Part shown: one piece after another, positions 1,241 through 64,000 of the stretch
Layout of the letters: each line of letters opens with the position of its first letter
Position numbering within the stretch: position 1 is the stretch's first letter
NCBI RefSeq assembly: GCF_009734185.1
Contig: NZ_CP046393.1
Coordinates: 1,232,501-1,296,500 of the forward strand
Length of the DNA: 64,000 nt
Direction of reading: 5' to 3'
From: Commensalibacter melissae
GTDB taxonomy: Bacteria > Pseudomonadota > Alphaproteobacteria > Acetobacterales > Acetobacteraceae
The notes under the pieces: model-generated
The model's input: only the letters and a program-made list of their open reading frames with translations
Databases searched by the model: none
Told to the model about the DNA's origin: nothing
Position numbers and translations under genes: made by a program

Positions 1241-1747
1241 TTAAGGAAAATCTGTCCTTTCATAATCATATTGATCAACAAGCTTTCTTAATGGATCAAA
1301 AGCACTATCATTACAATCTTTTACAAATATCTTGCTTTCACTCTCATTGATGACTTCATAAAATATCTTATTATTCCAATCCGCCTGACTGATCCCAAGC
1401 CACAATACCAAAGTGAAAGGATGAGGTTTTTCATGTTCAGGTTTGTTAATATAATAGTTTTTGTCCAGATCACGATTAAACTGAATTTCAACATCCCCGG
1501 TAGATGGCGGGTTCTGATGTAATGGTCCCCAACCTTTTAGATTGGATTTTATCCATTTCTTAACCAATTCAAGCTCTGAAGGTGTTAAACTACGTTTTTT
1601 GTGCAAGGGCCCAACAACAAGTTCCGCATTGACTATCGGTGGAAAAGTAACAGGTTGAATTTTATCCCTGACCGAAAGCCATATAATCATCACAATGGTA
1701 AGACAAACGATTAATACAAGGGTTAAAATTATATTTTGCTTTCTCAT
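1241..1747 (-). CDS. Hypothetical protein with one N-terminal membrane anchor
   Basis: 168 residues; I do not recognise a family. Residues about 6-26 form one hydrophobic helix after MRKQN, so it is probably an inner-membrane-anchored protein with a periplasmic body of about 140 residues. The body has a segment that reads like a small folded domain (SLTPSELELVKKWIKSNLKGWG, quoted in part) and a single cysteine late in the chain. It starts 4 bases after the aminotransferase stop on the same strand, so it is probably co-transcribed with the sugar genes; a link to glycan export is only a guess from position. Confidence 0.6.
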   Translation of the reverse strand: MRKQNIILTLVLIVCLTIVMIIWLSVRDKIQPVTFPPIVNAELVVGPLHKKRSLTPSELELVKKWIKSNLKGWGPLHQNPPSTGDVEIQFNRDLDKNYYINKPEHEKPHPFTLVLWLGISQADWNNKIFYEVINESESKIFVKDCNDSAFDPLRKLVDQYDYERTDFP

Positions 1748-1751
1748 TCTT

Positions 1752-2885
1752 TTATTTTTTTACTTTTAAAACTGCTTGAATAACACGGTTAACCTGAGCA
1801 TTCGAAAGTTCTGGATGAATAGGTAATGCCAAAATCCGTTTGGAAACTTCCTCTGATACTGACAAATATGTTCCATCATGATAGGAGTGATAGGCAGGTT
1901 GTAAATGCAATGGTAAGGGATAATAAATGGCCGAGGGAATATTTTCAGCCTTTAACGTATCTTGTACAAATTTGCGTTCTGCTTCATCACTTAATAGAAT
2001 TGAATAAATTGCCCAGGCACTTTTACTATTTAATACCCGAGCGGGTATTTTTACACAAGACAAAAGCGCGGCATCGTATAAAGTTGCAATTTCTTCTCTT
2101 CTTACAAGCTCCTCTTCAAGATAACCGAATTTGGCCAACAATATTGCTGCCTGTATCGTATCCAAACGTCCATTTATTCCCGTTCGCAAAACCTGATAAC
2201 GTGTTTGTCCTTCGCCATGCGAACGCAACGAGCGATAAAGTTCAAACTTTTCTAAACTGTTTGTAAAAATTGCACCACCATCCCCATAGGCTCCAAAAGG
2301 TTTGGATGGAAAAAATGAAGTGATCGTAGCATCTGCCTGACTCCCCAGCTTCTTTCCATGATATTGACCACCAAAGGACTGAGCACAATCATCCAACAAA
2401 AATAAATTTTCATCGTTAGCAATCTGGCATAATTCATTCCATGGCGCAGGCTGTCCAAAAAGATCTACCCCAATAATGGCTTTAGGTTTTAATTTATTTT
2501 CTTTTTTAACCTTATCAATTGCACTTTTGAGATTAATTGGATCAATTTGAAAAGTTTCAGGATTAATATCAACAAAAATGGGAGTTGCACCCAGCAATAA
2601 TGGAACCTCAGCTGTTGCTGTATAGGTAAATGCAGGTAAAAATACAGCATCCCCTCTTCCAACATTTTCACCCATTAACGCAATCTGGATTGCATCTGTT
2701 CCAGATGAAACCCCTATACAATATGAAACACCGACATATTCCGCCAAACGATCTTCAAGCTCCTGAACTTCAGGTCCTAAAATAAACTTTCCATGTGAAA
2801 AAACCTTGTCTATACGATCTTTTAAAATCTTTCCTATACGTACCTGTTGTTTGTTCAAATCTAAAAATAATATCGGATCATTCAT
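1752..2885 (-). CDS. DegT/DnrJ/EryC1-family PLP-dependent sugar aminotransferase
   Basis: Transfers an amino group to a nucleotide-linked 4-keto (or 3-keto) sugar. The family fold is evident: SSGTDAIQIAL (PLP phosphate loop), VDINPETFQIDP, LLDDCAQSFGG with the PLP-ring aspartate, and SFFPSKPFGAYGDGGA carrying the Schiff-base lysine (about residue 195). Length (377) is normal. A GTG two codons upstream at 2891 lies inside the GAGGTGA ribosome-binding site, so I use the ATG at 2885. Next to a CapD-type dehydratase, the likely product is a UDP-4-amino-sugar of the bacillosamine/QuiNAc4N kind. The exact sugar cannot be read from sequence. Confidence 0.88.
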   Translation of the reverse strand: MNDPILFLDLNKQQVRIGKILKDRIDKVFSHGKFILGPEVQELEDRLAEYVGVSYCIGVSSGTDAIQIALMGENVGRGDAVFLPAFTYTATAEVPLLLGATPIFVDINPETFQIDPINLKSAIDKVKKENKLKPKAIIGVDLFGQPAPWNELCQIANDENLFLLDDCAQSFGGQYHGKKLGSQADATITSFFPSKPFGAYGDGGAIFTNSLEKFELYRSLRSHGEGQTRYQVLRTGINGRLDTIQAAILLAKFGYLEEELVRREEIATLYDAALLSCVKIPARVLNSKSAWAIYSILLSDEAERKFVQDTLKAENIPSAIYYPLPLHLQPAYHSYHDGTYLSVSEEVSKRILALPIHPELSNAQVNRVIQAVLKVKK

Positions 2886-59859: not shown

Positions 59860-60930
59860 ATGAAACGTGCGACCTTACACAGCCGTACACTGTTATTTTT
59901 ATTAAGTGCTGCTTTGATTAGCCCCCCGCTCCTCATTTCTTCCTCTCATCAAGCTGAAGCAAGAGCAGGACGAGGGTTTTCCATGGGTAGCAGGGGAAGC
60001 AGAACCTTCAGCTCACCTTCCTATACTAGAATAACACCTAATGGAGGACAATCTTTTCAACGTACCATGACGAGACCTCCAGCAACTAATAATTCAGGTT
60101 TTAATGCGCGCCCTATAGCACCGTCAGCTCCAACTACGCGACAGATATCCCCCAATAACGCAACTGCTCCGCAAAGAGGAAATTTTCTTAAAGGAGTTGC
60201 CGGAGGAGTTGCCGGAGCAGCTGCCTATGATATGTTGATGGGTCATCATCAAACCAACGCCCAAACTCCTGCTGCTAATGCCAATCAAAATACTGATCAG
60301 AACATGAATCCGTCAGATCCCAATACAATGCAATCACATCCGACACCAATGTCTCAACAGACACCCAAAAAACATAATTCATCAGGATCTCTTGTATGGA
60401 TTATAGTTCTTGGGCTTCTGGTATGGTTTGGTATCCGTTATTTTCGCAAAAATTCTGCCATTAATAAAGAACAAGGAAACAATAATTCAATAAATCCGAT
60501 TAAGGAATATATCAAGGAATCAAATATACAACTTAATCAAAACGATTATACTGTTTTCCAACAACGACTCATCGAAATACAGGAAGCCTGGAATCATCAG
60601 GATTTGGGAATTATGCAAAAAATTGCCACTCCCGAGATGGTGTCTTATTTCAATGAGCAACTTACCGATTTGGCTAGTAAAGGTCTGCATAACAGCACTT
60701 CAAATGTACAATTTGAACAAGGGGATCTTTCCGAAGTTTGGACAGAAGGTACACGTGAATATGCTACAGTGGCTATGCGTTATTCGCTAATCGATATAAC
60801 GACCGACAATAACGGAAACGTTGTAGAAGGTAATCCAAATCAGCCTGTAACTGTAACAGAACTTTGGACTTTCGTACGATCGGTTGATCATAATTGGTGG
60901 TTGTTGTCTGCCATCCAACAACAGAAATAA
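59860..60930 (+). CDS. Exported Tim44-like-domain protein
   Basis: 356 residues. Signal peptide, then a Gly/Ser/Arg-rich segment (RAGRGFSMGSRGSRTFSSP), a Pro/Gln/Asn-rich low-complexity region, a membrane helix about 178-194, and a C-terminal Tim44-like domain (about 225-355). A common alphaproteobacterial exported or membrane-bound protein of unknown role, distinct from the TimA-like protein at 39300. It ends 1 base before the convergent CoxF-like gene. Confidence 0.8.
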   Translation: MKRATLHSRTLLFLLSAALISPPLLISSSHQAEARAGRGFSMGSRGSRTFSSPSYTRITPNGGQSFQRTMTRPPATNNSGFNARPIAPSAPTTRQISPNNATAPQRGNFLKGVAGGVAGAAAYDMLMGHHQTNAQTPAANANQNTDQNMNPSDPNTMQSHPTPMSQQTPKKHNSSGSLVWIIVLGLLVWFGIRYFRKNSAINKEQGNNNSINPIKEYIKESNIQLNQNDYTVFQQRLIEIQEAWNHQDLGIMQKIATPEMVSYFNEQLTDLASKGLHNSTSNVQFEQGDLSEVWTEGTREYATVAMRYSLIDITTDNNGNVVEGNPNQPVTVTELWTFVRSVDHNWWLLSAIQQQK

Positions 60931-61080: not shown

Positions 61081-62046
61081 TTAGACACCCCATAAATCAT
61101 AAATATAATGATCTATAATCAAGGCTAAAAATAAAAAGAAGAGATAAATCAAAGAAAAACGAAAAGACCATCTTGCCGCTTTATCGCTTCTTAAACTTTT
61201 TCCTGAATGATCCTGTTTTTCAAGTAAAACACAAATGGACATAAACATAAATCCGACATTCAATATCAACGCTGCCACCATATAGACGCTATGCGTGAAA
61301 TGAAAATACACAGGCAATAAACTGACAATGGCCAACAAAATAGTATATATGAAAATCTGCCACCGTGTATGTCTGGCCCCTTTTACAACTGGAAGCATGG
61401 GAATACCAGCCCGTCCATAATCCTTACAAGCATATAGGGATAAAGACCAAAAATGGGGAGGTGTCCAGAAAAAAACAATCAAAAATAGTATTATTGGGAA
61501 TAATTGGATCTGTCCAGTTACACTTATCCAACCTATCAAGGGTGGAAAAGCACCCGCTGCCCCACCAATAACAATATTTTGCGGGGTTGATCTTTTTAAC
61601 CAAACTGTATAAATCACACTATAATAAAATATTGAAAACGCCAGTATAAAACTTGCAAAAAAATTTGTAGCCAGAAACATAAGGATGACAGAGATAATGG
61701 ATACAGTTACCCCATAAATCAAAGCATCTGAAGATTGAACCCTCCCCGAGGGCAAAGGACGGGTTATAGTCCTGTTCATAACACGATCAATATCCTGATC
61801 GTACCACATGTTAATGGCACCAGCACCTCCTGACGCAAGACAAATACAAATAATACTTATCAAAGAAATAAAAGGGTTTGCATATCCAGGTGCCAAAATA
61901 ATGCCGACAATTCCTGTAAAAACAACCAAAGAAATAACCCTCGGTTTTAACAGAAGGAACCAATCCCTGACATTGCTTCCAACAATTAGTGGGTCGAAGC
62001 GTATACGCTGGTTGACAGCATTATTCTCAATCTGAATTTTACTCAT
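61081..62046 (-). CDS. ctaB: Protohaem IX farnesyltransferase (haem O synthase)
   Basis: 321 residues from ATG 62046, which overlaps the previous gene's stop as ATGA; the longer frame to 62091 lies in that gene. UbiA-superfamily membrane enzyme that farnesylates haem B to haem O for the Cyo oxidase. Motifs: NMWYDQDIDRVMNRTITRPLPSGR (parts) with the Asp-rich prenyl-diphosphate site, and CKDYGRAGIPMLPVVKGARHTRWQI (parts). No ctaA is in the window, so haem A synthesis cannot be judged. Confidence 0.94.
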   Translation of the reverse strand: MSKIQIENNAVNQRIRFDPLIVGSNVRDWFLLLKPRVISLVVFTGIVGIILAPGYANPFISLISIICICLASGGAGAINMWYDQDIDRVMNRTITRPLPSGRVQSSDALIYGVTVSIISVILMFLATNFFASFILAFSIFYYSVIYTVWLKRSTPQNIVIGGAAGAFPPLIGWISVTGQIQLFPIILFLIVFFWTPPHFWSLSLYACKDYGRAGIPMLPVVKGARHTRWQIFIYTILLAIVSLLPVYFHFTHSVYMVAALILNVGFMFMSICVLLEKQDHSGKSLRSDKAARWSFRFSLIYLFFLFLALIIDHYIYDLWGV

Positions 62047-63374
62047 CTGTTTTGCTTGTTTGCAGTAAACATGGGAGAAGGCAATTTCCATTCATTCGTG
62101 ATTGCACCTTTACCCCAATAATTGGCTACAGGTTTAACCACGTTATAAAATATGGCATTGATAATCACACCCTGAAAAACAAATATGGATAGTCCCATAA
62201 ATATGTCACCCCAAAAAACTGTGTTTCTACCTAATGGGATTATTTTCAATGTCAGAACAATTCCAATCATTGTAATCACAAAATGTGAAATTCCCATTGA
62301 TTCTGAATATTGTTTTCCAAAAATTTTACCCATCCAAAAATAAAACCCTGCAAAAATTGATAATATAATTGCATAAGTTAGAGTTGAATGAATCTGATTT
62401 ATTCCTTGAATTAATCCTTTATATGGCCAAGCAAAAAGTAAAAGGAACAAGCAACCCAACGACCATAACATAGGCGTTGATATGTTTTTTAAGCCTGTTT
62501 TAAACAAGTTCAATGCAAAAATACTTAAAACACATATCAATCCATATAAACCAACAGCAAATATAGTTTCGATGTTCACAAATGAATCTGTCTGAAAGTA
62601 GACTTCTGTAAATATGGATTTATTCCAAAATAAAAATAATAGAAGAGAGAATGCTGTTGTAATGCCAATTAATAAAATTTTATCCGATTTGATTCTGTTT
62701 TCCGAGATTGTCTGAAAAATATGAAATAAGATACCAAATGATGGCAAGATTAAAACTACAACCATGGGAAAAACGAAATTTTTTACAGTTTGTGAAATCG
62801 CCCAATCCAACTGCATATTATAATTGAAATAATCTCGTGTTAATATTCCCAATAATATTGATCCCACTCCCAATAAAAAACTCGCACTTATAACATGCAT
62901 CCAGGCAAATAGGGGAATTGAGTAATATTTAATATCCTGCCCACGATTATTAATAAAAGTAACAAGGACATTAATTGAAAATAAAACCGCACCAATTGAC
63001 CAAAATACCAGGCTTATCAAGCTCATCAATCCAGTTTCTGAATTAAAAAAGGAAAAAAAATTAAAGAAAAATCCCGTCCATAATAAAATGATAGAAAGGA
63101 TATTGACTAATGGAAACGCAAAATTTCTACTTCCAATTAAAACAGGAAAGAACCATGAACCGAAGGCTACCATTAATGCTGGCTGTAAGACAAAAAAAAC
63201 CATCATTCTGGCATGAGTCTGGAAAATGTTAATGGTGGCAGTTTTGTCATGAATTTGAAATAATAAAGGTAGAAATTCATTCAGTTGGTAATATAAAGCG
63301 GTGATCCCTCCACTTAATCCTGCCAAGATAGCCAAAATAATGGCACTCATTCCTACTTTATAATTGATTTTCAT
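62043..63374 (-). CDS. Divergent haem-copper oxidase subunit I homologue lacking the catalytic centre
   Basis: 443 residues, about 12 helices, aligning by eye with aa3-type subunit I (CtaD) from helix II to the C-terminus: THARMMVFFVLQPAL for YHGVLMMFFVVIPAL, STPMLWSLGCLF, IFAGFYFWMGKIFGKQY, NYWGKGAITNEWKLPSP. The two low-spin haem ligands are kept (H54 and H329). The CuB ligands are not: HPEVY is FPMVV (F202-V206) and the HH pair is K252-S253. The high-spin haem His is Q327. The channel Glu and the HPEVY Tyr are also gone. So O2 reduction is very unlikely; a low-spin haem-binding role is possible. No subunit II or III adjoins it. Confidence 0.8.
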   Translation of the reverse strand: MKINYKVGMSAIILAILAGLSGGITALYYQLNEFLPLLFQIHDKTATINIFQTHARMMVFFVLQPALMVAFGSWFFPVLIGSRNFAFPLVNILSIILLWTGFFFNFFSFFNSETGLMSLISLVFWSIGAVLFSINVLVTFINNRGQDIKYYSIPLFAWMHVISASFLLGVGSILLGILTRDYFNYNMQLDWAISQTVKNFVFPMVVVLILPSFGILFHIFQTISENRIKSDKILLIGITTAFSLLLFLFWNKSIFTEVYFQTDSFVNIETIFAVGLYGLICVLSIFALNLFKTGLKNISTPMLWSLGCLFLLLFAWPYKGLIQGINQIHSTLTYAIILSIFAGFYFWMGKIFGKQYSESMGISHFVITMIGIVLTLKIIPLGRNTVFWGDIFMGLSIFVFQGVIINAIFYNVVKPVANYWGKGAITNEWKLPSPMFTANKQNR

Positions 63375-63412: not shown

Positions 63413-64000
63413 CTATCTTTCAAAACTAACCAAAGTAAATAATCCTAAAGGCGGAACCGAATTTACTTCAGCCCTTTTTAACACTTCTGGTGGTAACAAG
63501 GACTGAATGGCAAAATCGGGATGCCAACCCAATGCCTTGGAGGCAGGAGCCATAATTCGTTCAACATATGACCGGAGTCCTTTTTGAGCTATAAAATGAT
63601 TCACAAAAAGAATATGCCCACCAGGCTTCACTACACGTTGTAATTCCTTAAACAATCGGTCTGGATGAGGCACAACCGAGGCAACAAACATGCCGACCGC
63701 AATGTCAAAAGAATCCGTTTCAAAAGTCGTTGCTTCAGCATCCATTTCCAACAATGCATCAACATTATCGATTTTTTCTTTTTTCACACGCTGTTTGGCC
63801 TTTTCCAGCATATCGGTTGAAAGGTCAATACCCGTCACTCTTTTATCATTATGATAAGAAGGTAAAGCTAGGCCAGTTCCGACACCCACCTCTAATATTT
63901 TTTTCCCCGGTAAAGAATTAACCTTTTCAACGGCACATCGTCGGCCAAATGAAGAAACTGTACCAAAAACAGTATCATAAACCTTGGCCCAGCGACGATA
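63413..64000 (-). CDS. pmtA: Phosphatidylethanolamine N-methyltransferase PmtA-like, 5' end cut by the window edge
   Basis: The frame is open to the right edge; 195 residues are seen of an expected 205-215, so the start is outside. YRRWAKVYDTVFG and KILEVGVGTGLALPSY with GIDLSTDMLEKA are the PmtA signature (Rhodobacter type), and LFTLVSFER closes it. It would methylate phosphatidylethanolamine stepwise to phosphatidylcholine at the membrane. A GTG inside the AdoMet-binding loop is not the start. It lies 38 bases before the COX1-like gene on the same strand. Confidence 0.87.
   Translation of the reverse strand, partial: YRRWAKVYDTVFGTVSSFGRRCAVEKVNSLPGKKILEVGVGTGLALPSYHNDKRVTGIDLSTDMLEKAKQRVKKEKIDNVDALLEMDAEATTFETDSFDIAVGMFVASVVPHPDRLFKELQRVVKPGGHILFVNHFIAQKGLRSYVERIMAPASKALGWHPDFAIQSLLPPEVLKRAEVNSVPPLGLFTLVSFER

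Follow-up and report, generated by a model that had tools for sequence, protein, structure and literature searches.

The locus lies at the end of the window, i.e. the whole 64,000-nucleotide stretch of DNA that was analysed, which belongs to a Commensalibacter genome of 1.96 Mb. Two neighbouring genes of the minus strand are of concern here: ctaB, coding for haem O synthase, and, just upstream of it, a frame called here ctaD*, for a protein apparently derived from CtaD, subunit I of the aa3 oxidase. The features referred to below are the following:

62043..63374, minus strand: ctaD*, CtaD-derived 12-helix protein of 443 aa, as judged from the ORF, profiles, aligned ligand positions and hydropathy
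63213..63215, minus strand: codon for the first His of the low-spin haem, H54 (Rhodobacter H102), located by counting from the ORF start
62388..62390, minus strand: codon for the second His of the low-spin haem, H329 (Rhodobacter H421), located in the same way
62043..62046, minus strand: ATGA overlap between the ctaD* stop and the likely ctaB start, read in the sequence
61081..62046, minus strand: ctaB, haem O synthase (TIGR01473, 325 bits for a cut-off of 210.3)
63413..64000, minus strand: PmtA-like methyltransferase running off the window, a conserved upstream neighbour for which no part in the function is claimed
59860-60930, plus strand: gene convergent with ctaB, coding for a protein that has a Tim44-like domain and a signal-like stretch at its N-terminus
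about 13.8-15.1 kb of the window: CyoB, subunit I of the bo3 quinol oxidase of the same genome

For ctaB, the ATG at 62046 is a likelier start than the listed ATG at 62091, since the former gives the ATGA overlap and the latter would make the gene overlap ctaD* by 49 bases. The ctaD* frame is unbroken over its 443 aa. Its product matched the COX1 profile PF00115 over residues 6-376 with 93.2 bits (cut-off 34.8), and the CtaD equivalog profile TIGR02891 with 96.2 bits, i.e. far below the cut-off of 670.75. Among solved structures, the nearest in sequence are COX1 or aa3 subunit I chains, and hydropathy gives 12 hydrophobic segments, as in CtaD. By its sequence the protein is a member of the haem-copper oxidase superfamily, nearest to the A-type CtaD. 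A protein of C. melissae AMU001 is 98% identical to it. Two more genes of the host genome match PF00115: CyoB and L002 (G000:C1:253912-255261), whose open frame is 772 aa long and which could be, at a guess, a quinol NO reductase. The sole match to CoxB in this genome, beside cyoB, reached 98 bits (below the cut-off of 147.7).

The haem and copper ligand positions were examined with Rhodobacter numbers, in agreement with the alignment to 1m57_A; we take H102 and H421 to be the ligands of the low-spin haem, H284, H333 and H334 those of CuB and H419 that of haem a3. Aligned with the working CtaD of the same family, the window protein has F202, K252 and S253 at the three CuB His positions, Q327 at the haem a3 proximal His, M204 and V206 at the Glu and Tyr of the HPEVY motif and N84 at the D-channel Asp; H54 (H102) and H329 (H421) are retained. 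The intact CtaD-like frame of the original prediction was thus recovered with the PF00115 and TIGR02891 matches, and each of the replaced and kept residues that it had listed was found by alignment. Its remark that the loops are short also held, as can be seen from the gaps counted below.

The same positions were then scored in 63 distinct ctaD* sequences, the window protein and 62 short relatives, from 63 genomes and 18 genera (counted as genus codes). The low-spin His pair was present in all 63. At the binuclear centre, His was found at the H284 position in none, at H333 in 33, at H334 in one (L109) and at H419 in one (L012); no sequence had more than two of these four His, and none had all three of the CuB ligands. 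The HPEVY Glu was retained in 33 sequences and the D-channel Asp in 19. There was never a Tyr at the HPEVY Tyr position, nor a Lys at the K-channel position, a column which is uncertain as the alignments differ there. The position of H411 (Mg site) is a gap in 60 of the 63, and those of R481 and R482 (subunit II docking) are gaps in 62 each, the window protein being every time among the gapped ones. Since the D-channel Asp, the HPEVY Glu and H333 are kept in part of the copies, the window protein is, at the level of sequence, the far end of a range of ligand loss. The most distant Commensalibacter copy, L012 (G173, 1486-2802, minus strand), has His at the H333 and H419 positions and not at H284 or H334; it possibly represents an intermediate state.

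Among 35 ctaD* representatives with less than 70% identity, only four of the 443 columns are invariant: H54, W158, W250 and H329. The two His are also the only His positions invariant in the set of 63. Replacement ligands were sought in the ctaD* alignment: among the columns of His, Cys, Met, Tyr, Asp, Glu, Lys or Arg, only the low-spin pair and Y345 were conserved at 85% or more. This bears on the idea that ctaD* still reduces oxygen or NO, at a binuclear centre made up of other residues. The retention of H333 and of the HPEVY Glu, each in just over half of the set, could be read that way, as could the H333 and H419 kept together in L012. Against it stand the lack of any such ligand-type column, the missing K-channel Lys (with the reservation made above on that column) and the fact that CtaG, the CuB assembly factor, was found in none of the 28 ctaD* genomes of the 42-genome set described below; we regard a rebuilt reductase as extremely improbable.

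Two further sites were considered. The quinol site of bo3-type enzymes comprises R71, D75, H98 and Q101, which we take to be E. coli CyoB numbers. The window protein has S, T, A and N there; across the 63 sequences, Arg, Asp and His never occur at their respective positions and Gln occurs twice. The suggestion that the protein could be a quinol carrier is therefore left without support, the bo3-type quinol site being missing. The other site is an Arg which, in CtaD, presumably contacts the formyl group of haem a; it is a Gln in 38 of the 63 ctaD* sequences. CtaA, the haem A synthase, was present in 16 and absent from 12 of the 28 ctaD* genomes, and a dependence on haem A was rejected on account of these 12. 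The Gln substitution would fit haem B or haem O.

Relatives of the window protein were searched in 397 genomes of the family, and the 30 best matches, its own included, were all short frames of the ctaD* kind. Outside the family, the matches listed from 289 genomes of the class (which include a few of the same family) had open frames of at least 486 aa, a listing from which short forms may have escaped. In the genera carrying it, ctaD* was found throughout, wherever there was an oxidase match. The matched stretch contains a stop in ten genomes (G214, G251, G181, G079, G061, G276, G323, G352, G286 and G705); the seven of these whose frames were extracted are nevertheless full-length (399-450 aa), and in the remaining three the open frame measures 434-466 aa. 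One copy (G701:C146:20908-22066) is split in three frames, in an assembly which is 86% complete and where CyoB is split too: assembly errors are the likely cause. In another genome (G327) the match is partial.

Were ctaD* a decaying relic of ctaD en route to loss, its fast divergence (outside the genus, identity to the window protein is 19-29%), the varied residues at the dead sites, the split copy and the partial match would all be accounted for. What is not is the strength of selection: dN/dS was 0.06-0.26 in 16 pairs (which share sequences and so are not independent, and of which 4 have a saturated dS, above 1, for ctaD*). The gene is under purifying selection, even if it evolved faster than ctaB in 16 of 16 pairs (0.02-0.14 for ctaB, same pairs). 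Neither does decay agree with a His pair that is invariant over the whole clade, with the long frames of the ten stop-bearing matches or with the state of the G701 assembly. The relic explanation, already disfavoured, is in our opinion very unlikely. A pseudogene and chance were both rejected in view of the intact frame, the low-spin His in 63 of 63 and a dN/dS that is not near 1.

Conservation is unevenly spread along the protein. With helix limits set by eye from hydropathy, helices I, II and X of ctaD* are more conserved than helices VI-VIII (mean entropy 1.90 versus 2.51 bits; one-sided p 1.2e-5). The reverse was observed for 13 working CtaD (7 of the family and 6 of the class), where helices VI-VIII (0.29 bits) vary less than helices I, II and X (0.63 bits); these proteins are less diverse than the ctaD* set, so that values were compared within sets only. 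Such a shift of constraint is as expected if the low-spin haem were still used and the binuclear centre were not.

In a tree of 53 rows, the 40 ctaD* rows formed a single clade (support 100/100). This clade grouped with the Acetobacteraceae CtaD with a support of 82/99, a grouping that was not starred, in a tree with long branches and uneven composition. Gene order agrees: where a working CtaD lies beside ctaB, the order is CtaC-CtaD-CtaB (six of six genomes), and in ctaD* genomes it is ctaD*-ctaB. A member of the methyltransferase cluster is found ahead of CtaC in a single CtaD locus (L052), and ahead of ctaD* in the majority of ctaD* loci. The other conserved flanks of ctaD* loci are gshB upstream and, beyond, tim44-like, tldD-like, M16 peptidase and thrC genes. 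The Tim44-like cluster was present in 28 of the 39 loci of the neighbour survey, which missed its target in 8 of them, a longer antisense frame being picked instead (L056-L058, L065, L066, L069, L044 and L054). From the tree grouping and the agreeing gene order, the simplest reading would be that ctaD* is the old ctaD changed in place. With 63 sequences that keep the low-spin pair and one clade, the window gene is not an isolated decaying one, and the view that it was repurposed rather than left to random decay is well supported by the invariant His, the dN/dS values, the single clade and the presence throughout genera.

The connection with ctaB was then looked at. In 102 of 102 ctaD* genomes (counting the partial match of G327), ctaD* lies immediately upstream of ctaB on the same strand. 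This adjacency is by itself weak evidence, because it goes back to the old cta operon and all of the surrounding genes are conserved as well. The pattern of presence and absence was analysed in a set of 42 genomes: 28 with ctaD*, six with a working CtaD, five without A1 match, ctaB or ctaD*, and three others (G001, G077 and G031). All 28 ctaD* genomes had ctaB over cut-off and 26 had a directly seen CyoB-like match; for G173 and G214, also ctaD* genomes, the match seen was to subunit II alone and did not reach the CoxB cut-off. CtaC was over cut-off in four of the 28 (G042, G073, G251 and G132), away from ctaD*. In these four genomes a further long-frame oxidase subunit I match adjoins a CoxB match over cut-off (G042:C1:511672, G073:C23:171635, G251:C1:4576652 and G132:C196:1292).

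The five genomes without ctaD* (G029, G116, G066, G070 and G210) had neither an A1 match nor a ctaB over cut-off, where the lack of an oxidase means that no A-type was detected, the A1 profile and single protein used being liable to miss cbb3 oxidases and NO reductases. A few oddities were revealed. In G001 and G077, ctaB and an oxidase match occur without ctaD*. G031 has no A1 match, and its ctaB, followed by CtaG, is 14 bases from a contig end; this is probably a cut cta operon. All of 74 further genomes had ctaD* and ctaB, each with at least two A1 matches. Of 49 genomes of genus g31, 47 had both ctaD* and a CyoB-like match, the two being distinguished by their score and the length of the frame; the other two genomes had neither. 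Three genomes without A1 match, G711 and G210 (g31) and G070 (g70), have gshB, methyltransferase, tim44-like, tldD-like, M16 and thrC genes in order, with exactly ctaD* and ctaB missing (for G711, ctaB was sought in that stretch only). The flank search found nothing in G029, G116 and G066. This joint loss could be explained as one two-gene deletion if both genes were useless without bo3; even then, no separate task kept ctaD* in those lineages, where no A-type oxidase was detected.

These observations are to be set against the possibility that ctaD* is a stand-alone one-haem cytochrome, in which the low-spin haem would carry electrons between a partner in the periplasm or membrane and some other component, the place of the gene beside ctaB being mere history. 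Electron carriers typically have such an invariant bis-His low-spin site, the loss of the subunit II loops would leave the edge of the haem more exposed, and the protein occurs with or without CtaA (16 and 12 of the 28 genomes). Yet ctaD* is absent from G029, G116, G066, G070, G210 and G711 although cytochrome bd oxidases, according to PMC10715153, are widespread in the family. It also lacks a bo3-type quinol site, and ctaB is the sole known haem gene among its conserved neighbours. We therefore consider a free-standing cytochrome unlikely.

The deranged COX1-like protein, or ctaD remnant, of acetic acid bacteria is reportedly treated in Matsutani 2014, where the A. pasteurianus ctaB is said to have been tested in E. 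coli. In three other papers, a ctaD-like gene next to ctaB in these bacteria is described as an incomplete, inactive or deranged ctaD (PMC3751514, PMC5158111, PMC10715153): APA386B_609 appears as a ctaD remnant (PMC3751514), ctaD APT_01775 is listed beside ctaB APT_01774 (PMC5158111), and a deranged COX1-like protein is said to lack all conserved metal-binding residues and is suggested to stabilise CtaB (Degli Esposti 2023, PMC10715153). By their position, these remnants would be the same gene as ctaD*. They share with it the place beside ctaB, the fold family and the loss of the oxygen-reducing centre; they differ in that they are presented as having no metal ligands or as probably inactive, whereas ctaD* has invariant low-spin His and is under purifying selection. 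The statement that all metal-binding residues are lacking is contradicted, on the aligned sequences, by the low-spin His of all 63 ctaD*. Literature searches found no paper reporting these invariant His, with the proviso that the figures of Matsutani 2014 may do so. The gene and its place beside ctaB are thus already known; as far as searched, the invariant low-spin pair, the constraint moved to it and the keeping or loss of ctaD* and ctaB together with the A-type oxidase are new. The original claim that no characterised family has this pattern needs correcting, the gene itself being in print, though described there as devoid of all metal ligands.

The published suggestion mentioned above amounts to a haem-less structural partner stabilising CtaB (PMC10715153). 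It would agree with the fixed pairing of the two genes and with the loss of the catalytic ligands; it does not readily explain why H54 and H329 are the only invariant His in 63 sequences, nor why no column except these and two Trp is invariant in the 35 representatives. That ctaD* has a purely structural role beside CtaB appears to us quite unlikely.

Among known systems, CtaD has in common with ctaD* the 12 hydrophobic segments, both low-spin His, the residues W230, P285 and W331 in Rhodobacter numbering, and the position directly upstream of ctaB; ctaD* is without CuB, haem a3, the cross-linked Tyr, the Mg site, the subunit II docking positions, a CtaC directly upstream and CtaG. CyoB shares with ctaD* the superfamily fold and the low-spin pair, and differs by a whole binuclear centre and by its quinol-site residues, the window protein having S, T, A and N in their place. 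Surf1 is a small two-helix protein with a fold unrelated to that of ctaD*. The kind of task proposed here for ctaD*, the passing of haem to subunit I, is nonetheless like that of Surf1, described as a haem chaperone of aa3 and ba3 oxidases (PMC5249081).

We give an even chance to the explanation that we prefer, which is that ctaD* is a former aa3 subunit I, now a non-oxidase one-haem membrane protein serving CtaB or bo3. To our knowledge, the bo3/ba3 operon of acetic acid bacteria in general has no haem O synthase gene of its own; PMC4596401 gives this for Asaia. The ancestor of these bacteria would have given up the aa3 oxidase, and ctaD would have changed in place, keeping the 12-helix fold and a bis-His low-spin site with H54 on helix II and H329 on helix X. 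In the absence of a CuB site, a haem a3 site and subunit II docking loops, ctaD* should not reduce oxygen; it would bind a single low-spin haem, B or O. More tentatively, it might act together with CtaB and keep freshly synthesised haem in a pocket like that of CtaD, the periplasmic lid of which (the R481/R482 loop) appears to be gone; it might then pass this haem to the bo3/ba3 oxidase or help to assemble it. A CtaB-linked haem supply to bo3/ba3 would be reasonable, since CtaB-CtaA complexes are known and the E. coli bo3 has no known dedicated assembly protein other than haem O synthase (PMC9145763). The synthesis step itself probably does not need ctaD*, as the A. pasteurianus ctaB is reported in PMC6915089 to be a functional haem O synthase; any role would come after synthesis. 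G001 and G077, with ctaB and an oxidase match and without ctaD*, and the faster evolution of ctaD* relative to ctaB are points against the preferred explanation. A haem chaperone for CtaB was among the original suggestions: a link to CtaB is supported, though not proved, by gene position and by the joint loss of the two genes. The full scenario, in which an oxidase subunit turned once into a haem-handling protein taking haem from CtaB, via an open-sided low-spin pocket, to the replacement bo3/ba3 oxidase, is possible and on the doubtful side.

To conclude, published work has dismissed ctaD* as a remnant, either dead or of structural use only. Should its low-spin haem prove real, ctaD* would be an unstudied membrane haem protein beside haem O synthase in a large bacterial group, the bearers of which include bacteria used for vinegar and cellulose as well as bee-gut dwellers. 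It offers a direct genetic handle on how haem O reaches the bo3 oxidase, and a natural experiment in which half of the haem machinery of an oxidase was kept and the other half released. If the proposal is true, a core catalytic subunit would have become an assembly factor for its own replacement.
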